Shown here: positions 10,863 to 16,144 of the stretch, one piece after another
Layout: each line of letters starts with the position of its first letter
How positions within the stretch are numbered: position 1 is the stretch's first letter
Assembly: GCF_000211475.1 (NCBI RefSeq)
Contig: NC_015474.1
Coordinates: 434,001-498,000, forward strand
Reading direction: 5' to 3'
DNA: 64,000 nucleotides
Origin: Pyrococcus sp. NA2
GTDB taxonomy: Archaea > Methanobacteriota_B > Thermococci > Thermococcales > Thermococcaceae
Position numbers and translations under genes: made by a program
The notes under the pieces: model-generated
What the model was told of the DNA's origin: nothing
What the model saw: the letters and a program-made list of their open reading frames with translations, nothing else
Databases searched by the model: none

Positions 10863-11761
10863 CTTGTGGCTTTGCCTATAGGAGAATTAGGGATAAATAC
10901 CCTCAACTGCATAGCAACGTCGTGCAAGATGCTATGAATTTGGCAATTGAGATCTACCGCTCTTGGATTAAGAACGGAGGGGAATTTCCAGAGTTTCACT
11001 CCGATGTTATTTACTTTAAAGGCGTTGATGTTAGGATAGAAAATAACGGATTGGTTGTCCCTTTAATGGGGAGGAGGGTTTATTTGCCACTATACGTTCC
11101 AAAGAAGTATAAAAAGTACCTTCAATACAAACACGGCAGAGTCATCATAAAACGTATTGACAAAGATTGGTATGCGTTGATCTCGGTCAATGTCCCAGAA
11201 AAAGAACCAATAAAGCCCATTGGAACAATTGGAGTGGACTTAGGATACTATAACTTGTTAGTGGCAAGCTAGCTTTGCCTTATAGACTATCTTTGATATA
11301 AGGTCTGCATAGCTCCAACGGTGTAAAATTTTCCTCAATAGCTTCGGTCTTCTTTGCTTCTTTAACCCCTCCAGCCTTTCTAGAACAATCGCCCTATTTA
11401 ACTGCTCTTGCCTTTAAAACAAGTCCCTTAGCAATTTTATGGTTTAAATCATTGACAAACTTTCTGTCTTTGTGGTTTGTCTTAGCATAAATACCGAACT
11501 TTTTCATAAGCCTCTGTTGCCTTCCCGCAGTTAGCTTTTCCAAATGTTCCTTGAGGGACTTCAAAGACATGTTCGAACTGCGGTTACTACGTTAGAACTT
11601 TCAAAGATAATGGGGTGTTTAGGTGTCCAAGATGCGGTTTTGTGGCTGATAGGGATTATAACGCCTCAATAAATATTGCGAAAAAAGGTTTGGAAGAATT
11701 GGAAAAGCGGGCCTTCCTCCCCGCCCAAAAGGGCAAGGCCTCCAGCCCGCGGAGGAGATGA
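10863..11761 (+). pseudogene. Scrambled IS200/IS605-family TnpB relic with inverted middle segment
   Basis: Three pieces of a TnpB are visible. From 10863 to about 11270, plus strand, the frame reads CGFAYRRIRDKYPQLHSNVV and continues to GTIGVDLGYYNLLVAS, the RuvC-I aspartate region. From about 11271 to 11572 the sequence reads on the minus strand as SLKSLKEHLEKLT ... NHKIAKGLVLKA and IVLERLEGLKKQ (RuvC-II Glu) to VYKAKLA, with one frameshift. From about 11573 to 11761, plus strand again, it gives CSNCGYYV, CPRCGFVADRDYNASINI (zinc ribbon and RuvC-III Asp). The natural order would be a single plus-strand gene, so the middle was inverted, with small losses at both joints. The N-terminus is also missing. 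Confidence 0.85.
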
Positions 11762-12040
11762 AGAAGTTCAGCTGGAAAGTTGTCCCAAGCCTGACAATAC
11801 TGGGATTCAGCAAAAGCGTCGGTTGGGCTCTAAACAAAGATCTCTCTTTTCTTATTATCAAGTTATATTTTCTCTTGAAAACTTCACCGTTCACGACGGG
11901 GAGATGTCAGACTCAATCAGCTCTAGTGAAGGGAAGCATACTAGCCACCGAGAGAATAATTAGAATCTTAGTTCCTAGGTATTGTTCGTAGCAATATTCC
12001 TTTATGGAATCTGGAAGATAGAGAAGTTGGAGGGAGGTAA
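11762..12040. other. Gap between TnpB relic and interrupted hydrolase
   Basis: About 280 bases with no convincing gene. The first part may be the degraded right end of the IS200/IS605-type element, since a plus-strand frame from 11758 continues with no family resemblance. GGAGGGAGGT at 12030-12039 is the ribosome binding site of the hydrolase that starts at 12041. Confidence 0.5.
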
Positions 12041-12278
12041 ATGATTGGTGTTATTTTTGCAATTCCCCTTGGCATTCTAACATTTCTTGCATTCGTTGGA
12101 TACAATATGGTAACACCACCTAAAAAAGTAGGGGAGTGGACGCCCAGGGATCTTGGACTCGAATATAAGGATATCGAGTTCAAGAGCAGGGATGGAATTA
12201 AGCTTAGAGGATGGTGGATAGATAGGGGCAGAAAACTTTATAAATTTCATTGTGTGTCATTATGTGTTGGTGTGTGTC

Positions 12279-12908
12279 GTGGAGAGGTTGCTCACGCCGA
12301 GGCAGGTTGCTGAAATCCTTGGTGTGAGTTTTATTACAATTAAAAGGTGGATTTATTCTGGAAAAATAAAGGCAGTAAAGCTTCCAACGGGCAAGTGGAG
12401 GATTCCAGAGAGTGAGGTGAAGAGGATTCTTGGTGAAAAACCCCCCGAAGAAACAAGAGCAGTCATTTACGCTAGGGTTTCAAGTTCAGACCAGAGGAAA
12501 GACCTTGAGAGGCAGGTTGAATACCTCACGAATTACTGTTCAGCGAAAGGCTACAAGCTCGTCCAAGTTATTACTGACGTAGCTTCAGGCTTGAATACGA
12601 GGCGTAGGGGACTACAAAAACTCTTCAAGCTTGTTTCTGAGAGAGAAGTTGATGTAGTCCTTGTAACCTACAAGGACAGGCTGACGAGGTTCGGTTATGA
12701 GTACCTCGAATACTTCTTTCACCAATTCGGCGTGAGGATTGAAGCAATACACGGGGAGGAAAAGAAGAATGCTCAACAAGAATTCGTTGAGGACTTGATT
12801 GCAATAGTAACTTCCTTTGCTGGCAAATTGTATGGAGCTCGTTCCCACAAAAAGAAAAAACTCGTCCAAGGCTTCAAGCAATTGTTGAAAGAGGTTGAAG
12901 GAGAATGA
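12279..12908 (+). CDS. tnpA: IS607 TnpA, MerR-HTH serine recombinase
   Basis: About 209 residues from GTG 12279. An N-terminal MerR-like helix-turn-helix (LLTPRQVAEILGVSFITIKR, about residues 4-23, with wing to ~45) precedes a small serine-recombinase catalytic domain (VIYARVSSSDQRKDLERQ, catalytic Ser near residue 68, and YKDRLTRFGYEYLEYFF). This HTH-first order is typical of IS607 transposases, as opposed to resolvases. The frame extends upstream to ATG 12252, but that extension runs through the TG-rich repeats and is Cys/Val-rich, so it is probably not translated. The stop overlaps the tnpB ATG by 4 bp. Confidence 0.95.
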   Translation: MERLLTPRQVAEILGVSFITIKRWIYSGKIKAVKLPTGKWRIPESEVKRILGEKPPEETRAVIYARVSSSDQRKDLERQVEYLTNYCSAKGYKLVQVITDVASGLNTRRRGLQKLFKLVSEREVDVVLVTYKDRLTRFGYEYLEYFFHQFGVRIEAIHGEEKKNAQQEFVEDLIAIVTSFAGKLYGARSHKKKKLVQGFKQLLKEVEGE

Positions 12909-14203
12909 GGATTGCAAGAACGGTAGTGCTGAAGTCTGAAAGACTTCCGAAAAAAGTTTTCAAGGTATTCATCGAGCTTGAAGGAATGTACCGAGAAATG
13001 CTCCTCCAGACTGTCCAGTTTGCAGTCCAGAACGAAATCACCTCCTTTGTAAAACTGAAGGCCGAAAAGTATTCCTTCTTGAGGAAGCTTTACCCCCAAC
13101 TCCCGAGCCATTACGCACACACGGTTTGCCAGGATTCAGTTACGAGGGCAAAAAGCTTCTTGAAGAGGAAAAGGAAAGGCCTCGTCAAAAAGGAGTATCC
13201 AGAAGTTAGGAGTGTTTCAATCTGGCTCGATGACCACCTGTGGCGTGCTGGGCTAACTTTCATAAAAATTGCCACGCACAAGGGTTGGATAGAGGTTGGT
13301 CTCGAGGGGCACAAGCATTATTGGAAGACGGTAAACTCGGGCTGGAGGATGGCTTCACAAGCGAGGGTAAAGCTTGAGAAGAAGGAGAGGAGGTTAGTTG
13401 TTTACTTGACGTTTTACAAGGATGTCGAACCGCGTGAGGCAAAATCGTGGATTTCCGTTGATGTGAACGAGGATAATGTTACTGCACTTGTAGATTTTAC
13501 GCCAGTAATTTTTGAGACGGGCCAGAAAAGGATGACCCTCGGCTATTATTACAGGAGGAAAAGGATTCAAAGGAAGTGGGATAAAAAGCTTGGCCCAAGG
13601 AGTGGGAGGAAGAGGAAAATCTTGGGGAGGCTTCACGAAAATGATAAGAAGAAAGACATTCGTAACAAGCTTGCAAAAATAATTGTAGAGGAAGCGAGGA
13701 GGAGGAACGCTGGAATAGTCTTGGAAAGGCTTCCGAAGAACGTTCCGAGAAGGATGCTGGAAGGGATTAGTGATAAACAACTCCGCCACAGGATTTATCA
13801 ATCAGCGTTTCTTGGAATCCAGAAAGCTATCGAGAGGAAGGCGAAAGAATACGGAATCCCAGTAATAAAGGTGAACCCGAGGAATACTTCAAGGATTTGT
13901 CCCGTTCACAATGCTGTCGTGAAGTATGAGAATGGTTCTCGTTTTGGAGTTTGTAGTGCTGGTGGTGAAGTCTGGCATCGGGACGTTCTTGCTGTTTGGA
14001 ATTTGTATTTGAGGGCTCTCCAGAGTGATGGGGGCTCTGCCCCGAGCTCTGGGGAGCTGTTCGTAGATGGGAGGCCCGTGCCGTTGGCCTCGACTGCCAC
14101 CAATGAAGCCATCTGGATTGAAAAGTCCAGATGGCTGAGGTGGAACTCCCTACCGCTGGCATTGATACAAACTGATACGCTCCCACACAAAACGAAGCGG
14201 TAG
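12905..14203 (+). CDS. tnpB: IS607 TnpB, RNA-guided nuclease
   Basis: The 432-residue protein has the RuvC-type catalytic triad in order: Asp near residue 186 (SWISVDVNED), Glu near 274 (IVLERLP) and Asp near 360 (EVWHRDVLAVWNL). A basic N-terminal half and a reduced zinc finger (CPVH at 332-335 and a Cys at 350, rather than a full four-Cys set) flank these. TnpB proteins are RNA-guided DNA nucleases that promote transposon retention. The C-terminal coding region overlaps the putative omegaRNA hairpins. The frame is intact. The start ATG overlaps the tnpA stop. Confidence 0.93.
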   Translation: MRIARTVVLKSERLPKKVFKVFIELEGMYREMLLQTVQFAVQNEITSFVKLKAEKYSFLRKLYPQLPSHYAHTVCQDSVTRAKSFLKRKRKGLVKKEYPEVRSVSIWLDDHLWRAGLTFIKIATHKGWIEVGLEGHKHYWKTVNSGWRMASQARVKLEKKERRLVVYLTFYKDVEPREAKSWISVDVNEDNVTALVDFTPVIFETGQKRMTLGYYYRRKRIQRKWDKKLGPRSGRKRKILGRLHENDKKKDIRNKLAKIIVEEARRRNAGIVLERLPKNVPRRMLEGISDKQLRHRIYQSAFLGIQKAIERKAKEYGIPVIKVNPRNTSRICPVHNAVVKYENGSRFGVCSAGGEVWHRDVLAVWNLYLRALQSDGGSAPSSGELFVDGRPVPLASTATNEAIWIEKSRWLRWNSLPLALIQTDTLPHKTKR

Positions 14204-14213
14204 GGAGAAACGG
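14107..14213 (+). ncRNA. Putative omegaRNA scaffold at the IS607 right end
   Basis: Two strong hairpins lie at the 3' end of tnpB. One is 14107-14117 with 14126-14136 (AGCCATCTGGA / TCCAGATGGCT, 8-base loop). The other is 14146-14157 with 14196-14207 (CTCCCTACCGCT / AGCGGTAGGGAG, 38-base loop). They end 6 bases before the element boundary. In TnpB systems the omegaRNA is read from the tnpB 3' end and right end, with the adjoining flank as guide. Here the guide would begin at 14214 with AAGCGAAAAAACTATAG. The 5' limit of the RNA is not visible. Its existence is inferred from family knowledge plus these structures. Confidence 0.6.
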
Positions 14214-14904
14214 AAGCGAAAAAACTATAGTAGTCCTACATGGATACACGGCAAGCAGGTGGAACGAGACATGCATGAAACCAGCAATCAAGATAATTGG
14301 AGAGCTAGGATACAACATCCTAACATTTGATTTTAGAGCCCATGGAGAAAGTGAAGGGAGCAAAACAACTATTGGAGACAAAGAAATTTTAGACCTAATG
14401 GGAGCAATAGACTGGCTCATCAAAAATACTAGAACCAAAAGAATAGCTCTAATTGGATTCTCAATGGGAGCCATGGTTACGATAAGAGGGCTTGCCGAGG
14501 ATGAGAGAACTTGCTGTGGAGTAGCAGACAGCCCGCCTATATACATTGATAGAACTGGAGCAAGAGGAATTAAATACTTTGCAGAATTGCCAGAGTCTCT
14601 CTATCCACTGATAAAGCCATTCATAAAGCTTTTCAGCGGAGCTAGGGAGGTAAACATAATAGAATACGCAGAGAAAGTCAGAAAGCCTCTTCTGATTATT
14701 GCAGGTAGTAAGGATCCCCTTGTAACCATGGATGAAGTTAGGGACTTCTATGAACGGAATAGGGATATCAATGGTGGATTAGAGCTCTGGACCACAGATG
14801 CTCCTCATGTGAAGAGTATAGAACTGTACCAAGAGGAATGGAAGAACAAAGTAGAAGGATTCCTGAGAAAACATTTGGACTCTCCCTGATTTTTCCATGG
14901 ATAA

Positions 14905-14914
14905 ACTTTATAAT
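14905..14914 (+). promoter_or_regulatory. TATA box of tRNA-Pro
   Basis: CTTTATAATT-type sequence is centred about 29 bases upstream of the first tRNA base, the usual distance for an archaeal tRNA promoter. Confidence 0.6.
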
Positions 14915-14938
14915 TGGAGAACTGGGAATTCGAAGTGA

Positions 14939-15016
14939 GGGGCCGTAGGGTAGCTTGGCCTATCCTGCGGGCTTCGGGAGCCCGTGACCCGGGTTCAAAT
15001 CCCGGCGGCCCCACCA
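14939..15016 (+). tRNA. tRNA-Pro (anticodon CGG)
   Basis: A full cloverleaf is seen. The acceptor stem GGGGCCG (14939-14945) pairs with CGGCCCC (15006-15012). The D-arm is G-rich, and the anticodon stem CGGGC/GCCCG encloses the loop TTCGGGA with anticodon CGG. The T-arm contains GGGTTCAAATCCC, the discriminator is A 15013, and an encoded CCA is present at 15014-15016. There is no intron. It reads Pro codon CCG. Its 3' two-thirds overlaps, on the opposite strand, the end of the fucose-isomerase-like frame. Confidence 0.97.
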
Positions 15017-16144
15017 TATTACCGAAAACCCTAATTCTTCAAATAAGTGGGCAACTTCATCCGCATCCGCATACGCTAACACGTGATGATTGCCAAAAGT
15101 TTTATCAACGAATTCTTTAGCCCTTTCTAAGCTAAGCACTACCTGAGTCCTACACATGAATTCATGTTCCAAATTTTCCTTAACTTCAACGGGAGTTATG
15201 AGAACTTCATGATTCCTAAGTTTAATAAGGGTCGCCGATCCTCTCGGAAGTTTGACCCTAACTCCAACCCCCAATCCCGTTTCAAAATGGGTCATGAGTT
15301 CAAAGTCCCCAATCAAGGGAGCGGAGCAATGTGCCAACACTATCTCGTTCTCACTGAAATCAACAAGGTTCCCCATGAAAGATGGCTTGCCCAGGAACTT
15401 CTGAATTATCGCCATTGCCAATAGCGAACTAACGTCACCCTCACATCCGGCAACTATTCCTTCCGCATTTAGGAGGGCTAGGGCTAGACAGGGAGTTACG
15501 TGCAGATCTTTGACGACGTCGAAGCATCCTATTGTAAAGCCATCAAGCTCATACCTCTCGACAATCTTTTTGAGGGCCAAGTATAGCCTCATAGCTTTAT
15601 TCAGGTCATGCACTTCTATCCCCTTAGCTTTCTCCATTAGCTTTGATCCCTTCCATTCAACCCTCCTGAAGACATCGTAAAGTTCACTTAAATCTACCCT
15701 TAGAATTGGAAACTTAGTATCTTCATTTATCAGCCAAGGGGATGTTCTCCCTATGAGAGCCAGCCTCATGCTGAGAAACTTCTTCAGCATCTCGAGTCTT
15801 TCCTCATATAGGGAGATCGCCTCCTCAATCTCAAAAGGTTTCACAAGGATCGTTGGAATTAGCATGCGTCTGAAGAACTCCCTAAGCTCAAGAGCTGCTG
15901 CTAGGGAATTATTTTCTGAATTTCCTACCAATATTATCGGTTTTCTAAACCTGTAGACCTCCTTCAGAAAGCCCTCCGTGCCCCCGGTTAAAGGATAAAC
16001 TATCACTACATCCGCCTCAACTTCTCCGATCTCCCTCTCAGATTGGACTATCTGCACTTCATATCTCTCAAACTCTCTGATAACATCGATGAATTGTTCC
16101 TTCTTCGAGAGGGGACTTAAGCCAAGAATAGCGGCAACCCTCAT
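14960..16144 (-). CDS. L-fucose isomerase C-terminal-domain-like protein
   Basis: A 394-residue protein. The N-terminal ~120 residues form a Rossmann-like domain (VAAILGLSPLSKKEQFIDVI). The remainder contains the metal-site-like region FTIGCFDVV, TPCLALALLNAEGIVAGCEGDV and VLAHCSAPL that occurs in L-fucose/L-arabinose isomerase-like proteins. In archaea such proteins are annotated as fucose-isomerase related, without a proven substrate. The last ~18 residues (WWGRRDLNPGHGLPKPAG) are antisense to tRNA-Pro, so the original C-terminus probably lay earlier or the tRNA has been captured as coding sequence. The gene is monocistronic, with no neighbour suggesting a sugar pathway. Confidence 0.75.
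   Translation of the reverse strand: MRVAAILGLSPLSKKEQFIDVIREFERYEVQIVQSEREIGEVEADVVIVYPLTGGTEGFLKEVYRFRKPIILVGNSENNSLAAALELREFFRRMLIPTILVKPFEIEEAISLYEERLEMLKKFLSMRLALIGRTSPWLINEDTKFPILRVDLSELYDVFRRVEWKGSKLMEKAKGIEVHDLNKAMRLYLALKKIVERYELDGFTIGCFDVVKDLHVTPCLALALLNAEGIVAGCEGDVSSLLAMAIIQKFLGKPSFMGNLVDFSENEIVLAHCSAPLIGDFELMTHFETGLGVGVRVKLPRGSATLIKLRNHEVLITPVEVKENLEHEFMCRTQVVLSLERAKEFVDKTFGNHHVLAYADADEVAHLFEELGFSVIWWGRRDLNPGHGLPKPAG

Follow-up and report, generated by a model that had tools for sequence, protein, structure and literature searches.

Structure of the interrupted locus

The window, a stretch of 64,000 nucleotides of the Pyrococcus sp. NA2 genome, contains an alpha/beta-hydrolase gene (whole extent 12041-14889) that is split by an insertion sequence of the IS607 family (12229-14213, + strand, 1985 bp). 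The 5' part of the hydrolase (12041-12228, + strand) comprises 62 codons and 2 bases and was assigned from the joined frame, the orthologues and the matches of the joined protein to alpha/beta-hydrolase families of Pfam, and the 3' part (14214-14889, + strand) contains the nucleophile motif GFSMG, with the Asp and His motifs after it. The element was delimited by the joined frame, the TnpA profile and ends matching those of other genomes. When its flanks were joined (...GATAGGGG to AAGCGAAAAA), an ATG-to-stop frame of 287 codons was obtained, 864 bases including the stop and with no internal stop, as a sequence-only reading of this DNA had claimed for a deletion of 1985 bp. The GG which the same reading placed at both boundaries is present at 12227-12228 and 14212-14213, and because it stands on both sides, three of the 13 cut positions tried (shifts 0, -1 and -2) gave the identical joined sequence; the exact exchange base inside GG cannot be assigned. 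The possibility that the left GG is part of the element was rejected, as the frame, 27 of 29 relatives and all 12 empty sites of the G039 insertion assign it to the target. This target, GGGG (12225-12228, + strand), would contribute its last two bases as the GG exchange core, and as a whole it is the candidate target-adjacent motif of TnpB.

The ends of the element are supported beyond the frame, because the copies in other genomes stop at the same bases. The copies in G001, G026, G039 and G043 aligned across query bases 1-1985 and that in G002 across 2-1985; they have the left tip CAGAAAACTTTATAA or a similar one and the right tip GCGGTAGGGAGAAACGG, and the sequence outside is unrelated. Eleven left junctions were typed by hand, with the insertion common to G006 and G008 counted once, and GG was found at -1/-2 in all of them, G at -3 in ten and at -4 in nine, with a left G run of at least four in eight. 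No shared sequence was seen when the right flanks of the copies were compared by eye. A TATA-like box, CTTTATAAAT, was recognized by eye in the left tip (12236-12245, + strand), has similar counterparts in the copies of other genomes and is possibly the promoter of the element itself. It is followed by short GTGTGTC-like direct repeats (12250-12278, + strand), found by eye against the IS607 ends described in passages of PMC6188088, which may be TnpA binding sites; opposite-sense words resembling them were noticed by eye around 14160-14194. These results confirmed that the event is real and that the insertion is reconstructable, with GG at the termini and in the empty target and no target-site duplication; the joint of the P. 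abyssi copy is not exact.

The uninterrupted hydrolase, which the sequence-only reading proposed to seek in relatives, was present at E <= 1e-110 in 30 of the 36 other Thermococcaceae genomes searched, and the best match in 24 genomes outside this family was 1.7e-21. Since three of the 36 gave no match (G007, G019 and G024, G019 being a 78% complete genome) and three only weak ones (G027, G033 and G035), loss of the hydrolase seems to be tolerated. All 29 relatives aligned, a count without the own-genome locus L034, which starts past the junction strip, and without the G010 orthologue, which has no locus, were open, with a stop at the match end or at most three codons from it. The junctions of these relatives agreed with the reconstructed one: the strip was gapless in 27 of the 29, with a one-residue gap near the junction in L049 and L052, and the peptide DRGSEKT of the joined window was identical in four. 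The GFSMG and later Asp and His motifs were found in the ten relatives aligned for the relative-rate test, with GYSMG in two. The counts of unique changes leaned towards the window gene (22-28 vs 16-21 with nine outgroups), and the acceleration was not significant with any of the nine (P 0.09-0.88). The restored frame is clean and carries no further inactivating change, so the host gene is otherwise undamaged, as had been proposed, and the insertion would have inactivated it.

The non-significant acceleration is in line with an insertion that postdates the split from P. abyssi. The earlier description of the transposition as recent has weak support and applies relative to the split from the nearest species compared, a scale to which it is limited because the genome collection has one genome per species; strong recency was rejected on the non-significant relative-rate test in nine outgroups, and a finer date is not supported.

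TnpA and TnpB

The tnpA gene (12279-12908, + strand) encodes an IS607 serine transposase with an N-terminal helix-turn-helix and a C-terminal resolvase domain. Its frame is open, with 218 amino acids from GTG at 12252 or 209 from GTG at 12279, where the relatives L006-L008 start with ATG. TnpA scored 237.5 bits against NF033518 (cut-off 110), which together with the absence of a target-site duplication bears out the earlier assignment to IS607. PF12728 at residues 13-60 is followed by PF00239 at 70-202, that is, a serine recombinase with an N-terminal DNA-binding domain as in IS607 elements, and the nearest solved chain is the catalytic domain of the ISC1926 TnpA (E 2.3e-64). Selection was assessed on full open genes only, in four tnpA and six tnpB relatives. 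The dN of tnpA was 0.04-0.06 vs a dS of 0.58-1.66 in four comparisons, and that of the tnpB body was 0.09-0.20 vs 0.95-2.48 in six, rates which indicate purifying selection on both between the open copies compared.

The tnpB gene (12905-14203, + strand) overlaps tnpA by 4 bases, and its open frame of 432 amino acids belongs to the RNA-guided nuclease family and stops with a TAG inside the last hairpin of the right end. The protein passed the cut-offs of TIGR01766 (79.3 vs 32) and PF07282 (47.4 vs 26.3), and with 99.3 bits it lay 0.7 below the cut-off of 100 for NF040570, the NCBIfam profile of guided TnpB. Residues D186, E274 and D360, which we take from motif knowledge to be the catalytic RuvC D-E-D triad, were invariant in all five sequences of an alignment with four Desulfurococcales homologues. 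A canonical four-cysteine zinc finger was not found in TnpB, which reads CPVH...CSAG, with H335 and G353 at positions occupied by Cys in the Cas12m chain; around the third Asp the sequence is DVLAVWN, with Leu where the Cas12m alignment has Asn. The CPVH...CSAG pattern recurs in the Thermococcaceae copies and in the four crenarchaeal homologues compared, and because these relatives have it too, the degenerate finger is not damage in the window copy. Mutation of TnpB in the window copy only was rejected on the same ground, and the earlier statement that tnpA and tnpB are intact holds with this qualification.

In residues 332-360 of TnpB (13898-13984), Cys-His-Cys and a Gly replace the four cysteines, and an invariant His358 follows in WHRD. 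As a guess, His358 could be the missing zinc ligand, and a rearranged zinc site is possibly common to the Thermococcaceae and Desulfurococcales copies. The structure model of TnpB was mediocre (pLDDT 67.5, pTM 0.48), and a fold search with it placed Cas12f first and the TnpBs of ISFba1 and ISDra2 at ranks 13 and 20, all with TM-scores below 0.4. The window also holds the broken remnant of another tnpB-like gene (10922-11760), which ends about 280 bases upstream of the hydrolase and keeps a four-cysteine finger, CSNC...CPRC, at its end.

Right end and predicted guide RNA

The right end is predicted to encode an omegaRNA (reRNA) scaffold (14014-14213, + strand) with hairpins at 14014-14058, 14071-14091, 14108-14135 and 14146-14207, followed by AAACGG. 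The fold of 14010-14233 had a z-score of -6.66, and none of 200 shuffles was as good. The alignment used for covariation (A3) had 14 rows, of which ten come from Thermococcaceae and four from crenarchaeal elements; the derivative L106 of A1 is not among them. In the two long hairpins 98.7% of cells were paired, vs at most 43.8% in slid-partner controls, and changes on both sides were seen in 12 of 22 pairs; these counts are not independent events because the rows are related, and most of the changes separate Thermococcaceae from crenarchaeal rows.

Codons 374-432 and the stop of tnpB (14024-14203, + strand) fall within this region. The last 59 codons had a dS of 0.15-0.44 and a dN of 0.10-0.17, vs the dS of the tnpB body given above, again in six comparisons. 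Because dS is depressed and the structure model gives this tail no confident fold, we read it as part of the scaffold, and it resembles an RNA gene whose translation is incidental. In TnpB systems the guide RNA usually overlaps the 3' end of tnpB. All seven tnpB copies checked stop at the equivalent position, a TAG within the 3' arm of the last hairpin. In two loci of the Desulfurococcaceae AG1 (L096 and L097), the last hairpin was observed without the TAG, the tnpB frame runs 15-20 bases beyond the right tip, and the tip of L096 is AAACGA. The order of tnpB after tnpA, with the predicted guide RNA at the right end, is that of IS607 elements.

Judged from this architecture, the guide would be AAGCGAAAAAACTATAGTAG (14214-14233, + strand), supplied by the hydrolase gene. 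The 19 bases 14212-14230, GG and the first 17 guide bases, occur only once in the own genome when up to 3 mismatches are allowed. The bases before the guide match at the junction of the element itself are ACGG, not GGGG. TnpB would cut the empty hydrolase allele adjoining GGGG, and the interrupted site would be spared because the insertion parts GGGG from the guide-matching sequence.

Other copies and spread of the element

A second empty site was available for the insertion in G039. In 12 relatives examined, out of more matches listed, the empty site was gapless with GG at the exchange point in all 12; GGGG was present in five, and the others were GAGG-like or GTGG-like. G001 belongs to the genus of the window and is taken to be P. 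abyssi from the sRk48 and sRk52 coordinates and from the near identity of its element with one on the P. abyssi plasmid pGE2. Its chromosomal insertion lacks 4 bases beside the left G run as compared with the empty sites of the own genome (G000), G002 and G003, which may reflect an imprecise insertion or a later loss, and because of this junction exact joining or freedom from decay is not universal.

The genome of Pyrococcus sp. NA2 holds one full copy of the element and one remnant. The remnant (G000:C1:1599702-1599898; L002 1501-1697) is 97% identical over 149 bases and keeps the last hairpin and an intact right tip without a full tnpB; the 10-base word TTCCATGAAT was seen by eye at both of its sides. 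A second IS607-type tnpA lies elsewhere in this genome, and its neighbouring tnpB (L004) is just 36% identical.

The copy in G026, which belongs to another genus, was 91.9% identical in TnpA and 82.3% in the TnpB body, vs 56.3% for the hydrolase. The differences at fourfold sites, which were used because the NG86 dS of the hydrolase pair was undefined (saturated), were 0.32 for TnpA and 0.39 for the TnpB body and 0.73 for the hydrolase; since they are lower for the element than for the hydrolase, the element seems to have been horizontally transferred. The more distant G002 copy of the same genus was 70.3% identical in the TnpB body (fourfold 0.62). The chromosomal copy of P. abyssi and a left-truncated copy on the P. 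abyssi plasmid pGE2 are 99.9% identical over 1862 bases, which makes the plasmid a plausible carrier.

Two identical 1468-bp copies in G040 (L009 and L072) have the same deletion of most of tnpA, keep an open tnpB and the scaffold, and sit between unrelated flanks, of which one matches a gene with many relatives. This identity between unrelated flanks argues that a derivative without tnpA and with tnpB has moved, probably with TnpA supplied in trans. Other relatives are damaged: the tnpB of L011 aligns as two separate pieces without a clean join, a contig end truncates L012, and L013 is missing its 5' part and contains a stop. Short derivatives were also observed. L104 (G006:C3) and L105 (G008:C57) occupy the same site and retain the left end and the scaffold but have lost most of tnpA and tnpB, and L106 (G006:C2) is another, near an apparent further left end. 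A search of viral contigs with the TnpB alignment gave 23 stretches, none confirmed, and the phage search gave 11 records with distant TnpBs only, at most 39%.

Discussion

Based on the joint evidence of the reconstructed frame, the two open genes, the conserved right end and the copies in other genomes, the window very probably contains a complete IS607 element that was cleanly inserted at GG and inactivated the hydrolase, with retention through TnpB and its guide and with intergeneric spread in Thermococcaceae. IS607-family elements move as a double-stranded circle. The element would have moved in this form, and the TnpA serine recombinase would have exchanged strands over the GG common to the element ends and the GGGG of the hydrolase, so that the hydrolase was cut after codon 62 without a base duplicated or lost. 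A transcript of the right end would then read out into the hydrolase and take AAGCGAAAAAACTATAGTAG as its guide. By analogy with published IS607 TnpBs and from the architecture described here, TnpB charged with this guide would cut an uninterrupted hydrolase allele at GGGG-AAGCG..., and loss of the element would be repaired from the sister copy, by which the insertion would be kept. The family seems to spread between genera of Thermococcaceae, with a plasmid as one plausible carrier.

Most of these features have counterparts in described systems. The passages of PMC6188088 on the IS607 family report GG targets, with (G)GG favoured by OrfA itself, and no duplication, and the exchange over GG between the circular element and a GG target is described in parts of PMC6188088 and PMC4058570. 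Judged by PMC6188088, an insertion that is clean and can be reconstructed is what IS607 would normally produce, and the earlier view of this insertion as a rare case was not sustained. ISC1926 of Sulfolobus islandicus, with a pyrE::ISC1926 strain on record in Sulfolobus, is likewise archaeal and has GG termini and empty targets (PMC6188088); it is another element in another host, and it was compared here through the TnpA chain alone. IS607 of Helicobacter pylori and ISXfa1 of Xylella fastidiosa also exchange over GG with no duplication (PMC6188088, PMC4058570), and the ISXfa1 TnpB is reported in PMC10711439 to use GGG as its motif, with an RNA scaffold in which the fixed right-flank base is included. 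The window element differs from these two in the left G run of at least four in eight of 11 junctions, with the motif read from it, and in the degenerate zinc finger of TnpB. The ISFba1 TnpB with RAGATH-18 RNAs is an IS607 TnpB with the guide RNA downstream and the motifs AGGAG/GAGGG (PMC11061315); the fold search with the window TnpB also matched its structure, 8iaz, at an identity of only 16%. No Rfam family matched the window right end in a search of 11900-15100.

In P. abyssi, sRk48 and sRk52 have been described as folded, processed RNAs related to IS607 orfB-like 3' ends (PMC3124441), and gel retardation of sRk52 by L7Ae was reported in the same paper, the only one to name sRk52 within the literature searched. 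Six places in G001 resemble one another, the number also given in PMC3124441, and the published coordinates of the two RNAs correspond to two of them. Sequences similar to sRk48/sRk52 were found in all nine genomes of the genus searched, and an Rfam search of the P. abyssi ncRNA loci gave nothing. The two loci (L100 and L101, G001:C1) end in a hairpin and AGAACGG, as the right end of an IS607 element does, and this tip resembles by eye the AAACGG of the window. The RNAs belong to another subfamily, with no blastn match to the window element at E <= 0.1, and look like its stand-alone guide RNAs.

One rival reading leaves TnpB out. If the TnpB of the whole clade had no working nuclease, TnpA alone would maintain the element and the G-rich flank would reflect the target choice of TnpA. 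The degenerate zinc finger and the Leu in place of the Cas12m Asn after the third Asp favour this, as does the preference for (G)GG that PMC6188088 ascribes to the IS607 OrfA alone. Against it, D186, E274 and D360 are invariant in five of five sequences, the tnpB body appears to be under strong purifying selection, the scaffold covaries in Thermococcaceae and crenarchaeal copies, and the two G040 copies lost most of tnpA and kept tnpB and the scaffold; we consider a dead TnpB unlikely. It is improbable, to a clearly greater degree, that the insertion is old and that one or both hydrolase pieces still work as separate proteins. In the 3' piece an in-frame ATG at 14275 opens a frame of 204 codons in which the nucleophile, Asp and His motifs are all present, but this piece lacks the N-terminal part bearing the LHGY motif, the split version was found in none of the 29 aligned relatives, and the hydrolase seems dispensable in view of the six genomes of 36 with no match or a weak one.

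Two further explanations were considered. Fusions of insertion sequences with group I introns are known (PMC4227781), and if RNA splicing removed the element from the transcript, as in an IStron, the hydrolase would still be made; the exact restoration of the frame on removal of the element would suit this, but it is to be expected in any case from the GG exchange. A search of 11900-15100 against Rfam gave no intron family at E <= 1, and the two matches below the gathering score both lie on a tRNA-Pro gene found by ARAGORN. A self-splicing group I intron in the element was rejected for want of such a match, and only a very slight chance is left to an IStron-like arrangement. An assembly error or a mixed culture, with the insertion as a minor allele or artefact, is scarcely credible: the genome is a single contig of 1,861,320 bp and 99.92% complete, repeats should not mislead the assembly here because there is only one full copy of the element, and the element ends equal those in independent genomes.

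A functional TnpB guided to the empty hydrolase site is the reading we prefer. A wider proposal is possible though doubtful, namely that these elements form an archaeal IS607 branch with the scaffold almost wholly within the tnpB frame as far as the stop codon of the last hairpin, a rearranged Cys-His-Cys-(His) zinc knuckle, a GGGG motif and a TnpB-guide module acting as a self-enforcing drive, which would persist in the hydrolase gene and spread between genera even in copies without tnpA. The behaviour of the element is mostly ordinary, being what the well-studied IS607 family is known to do, and the conceptual gain is small because the mechanism is already described for this family. The locus is an IS607 insertion from a hyperthermophile that can be reconstructed in full; the genes of both enzymes are open, and the window allows prediction of guide, motif and cut site alike. 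It may serve as a clean test case of whether an archaeal IS607 TnpB protects its own insertion.
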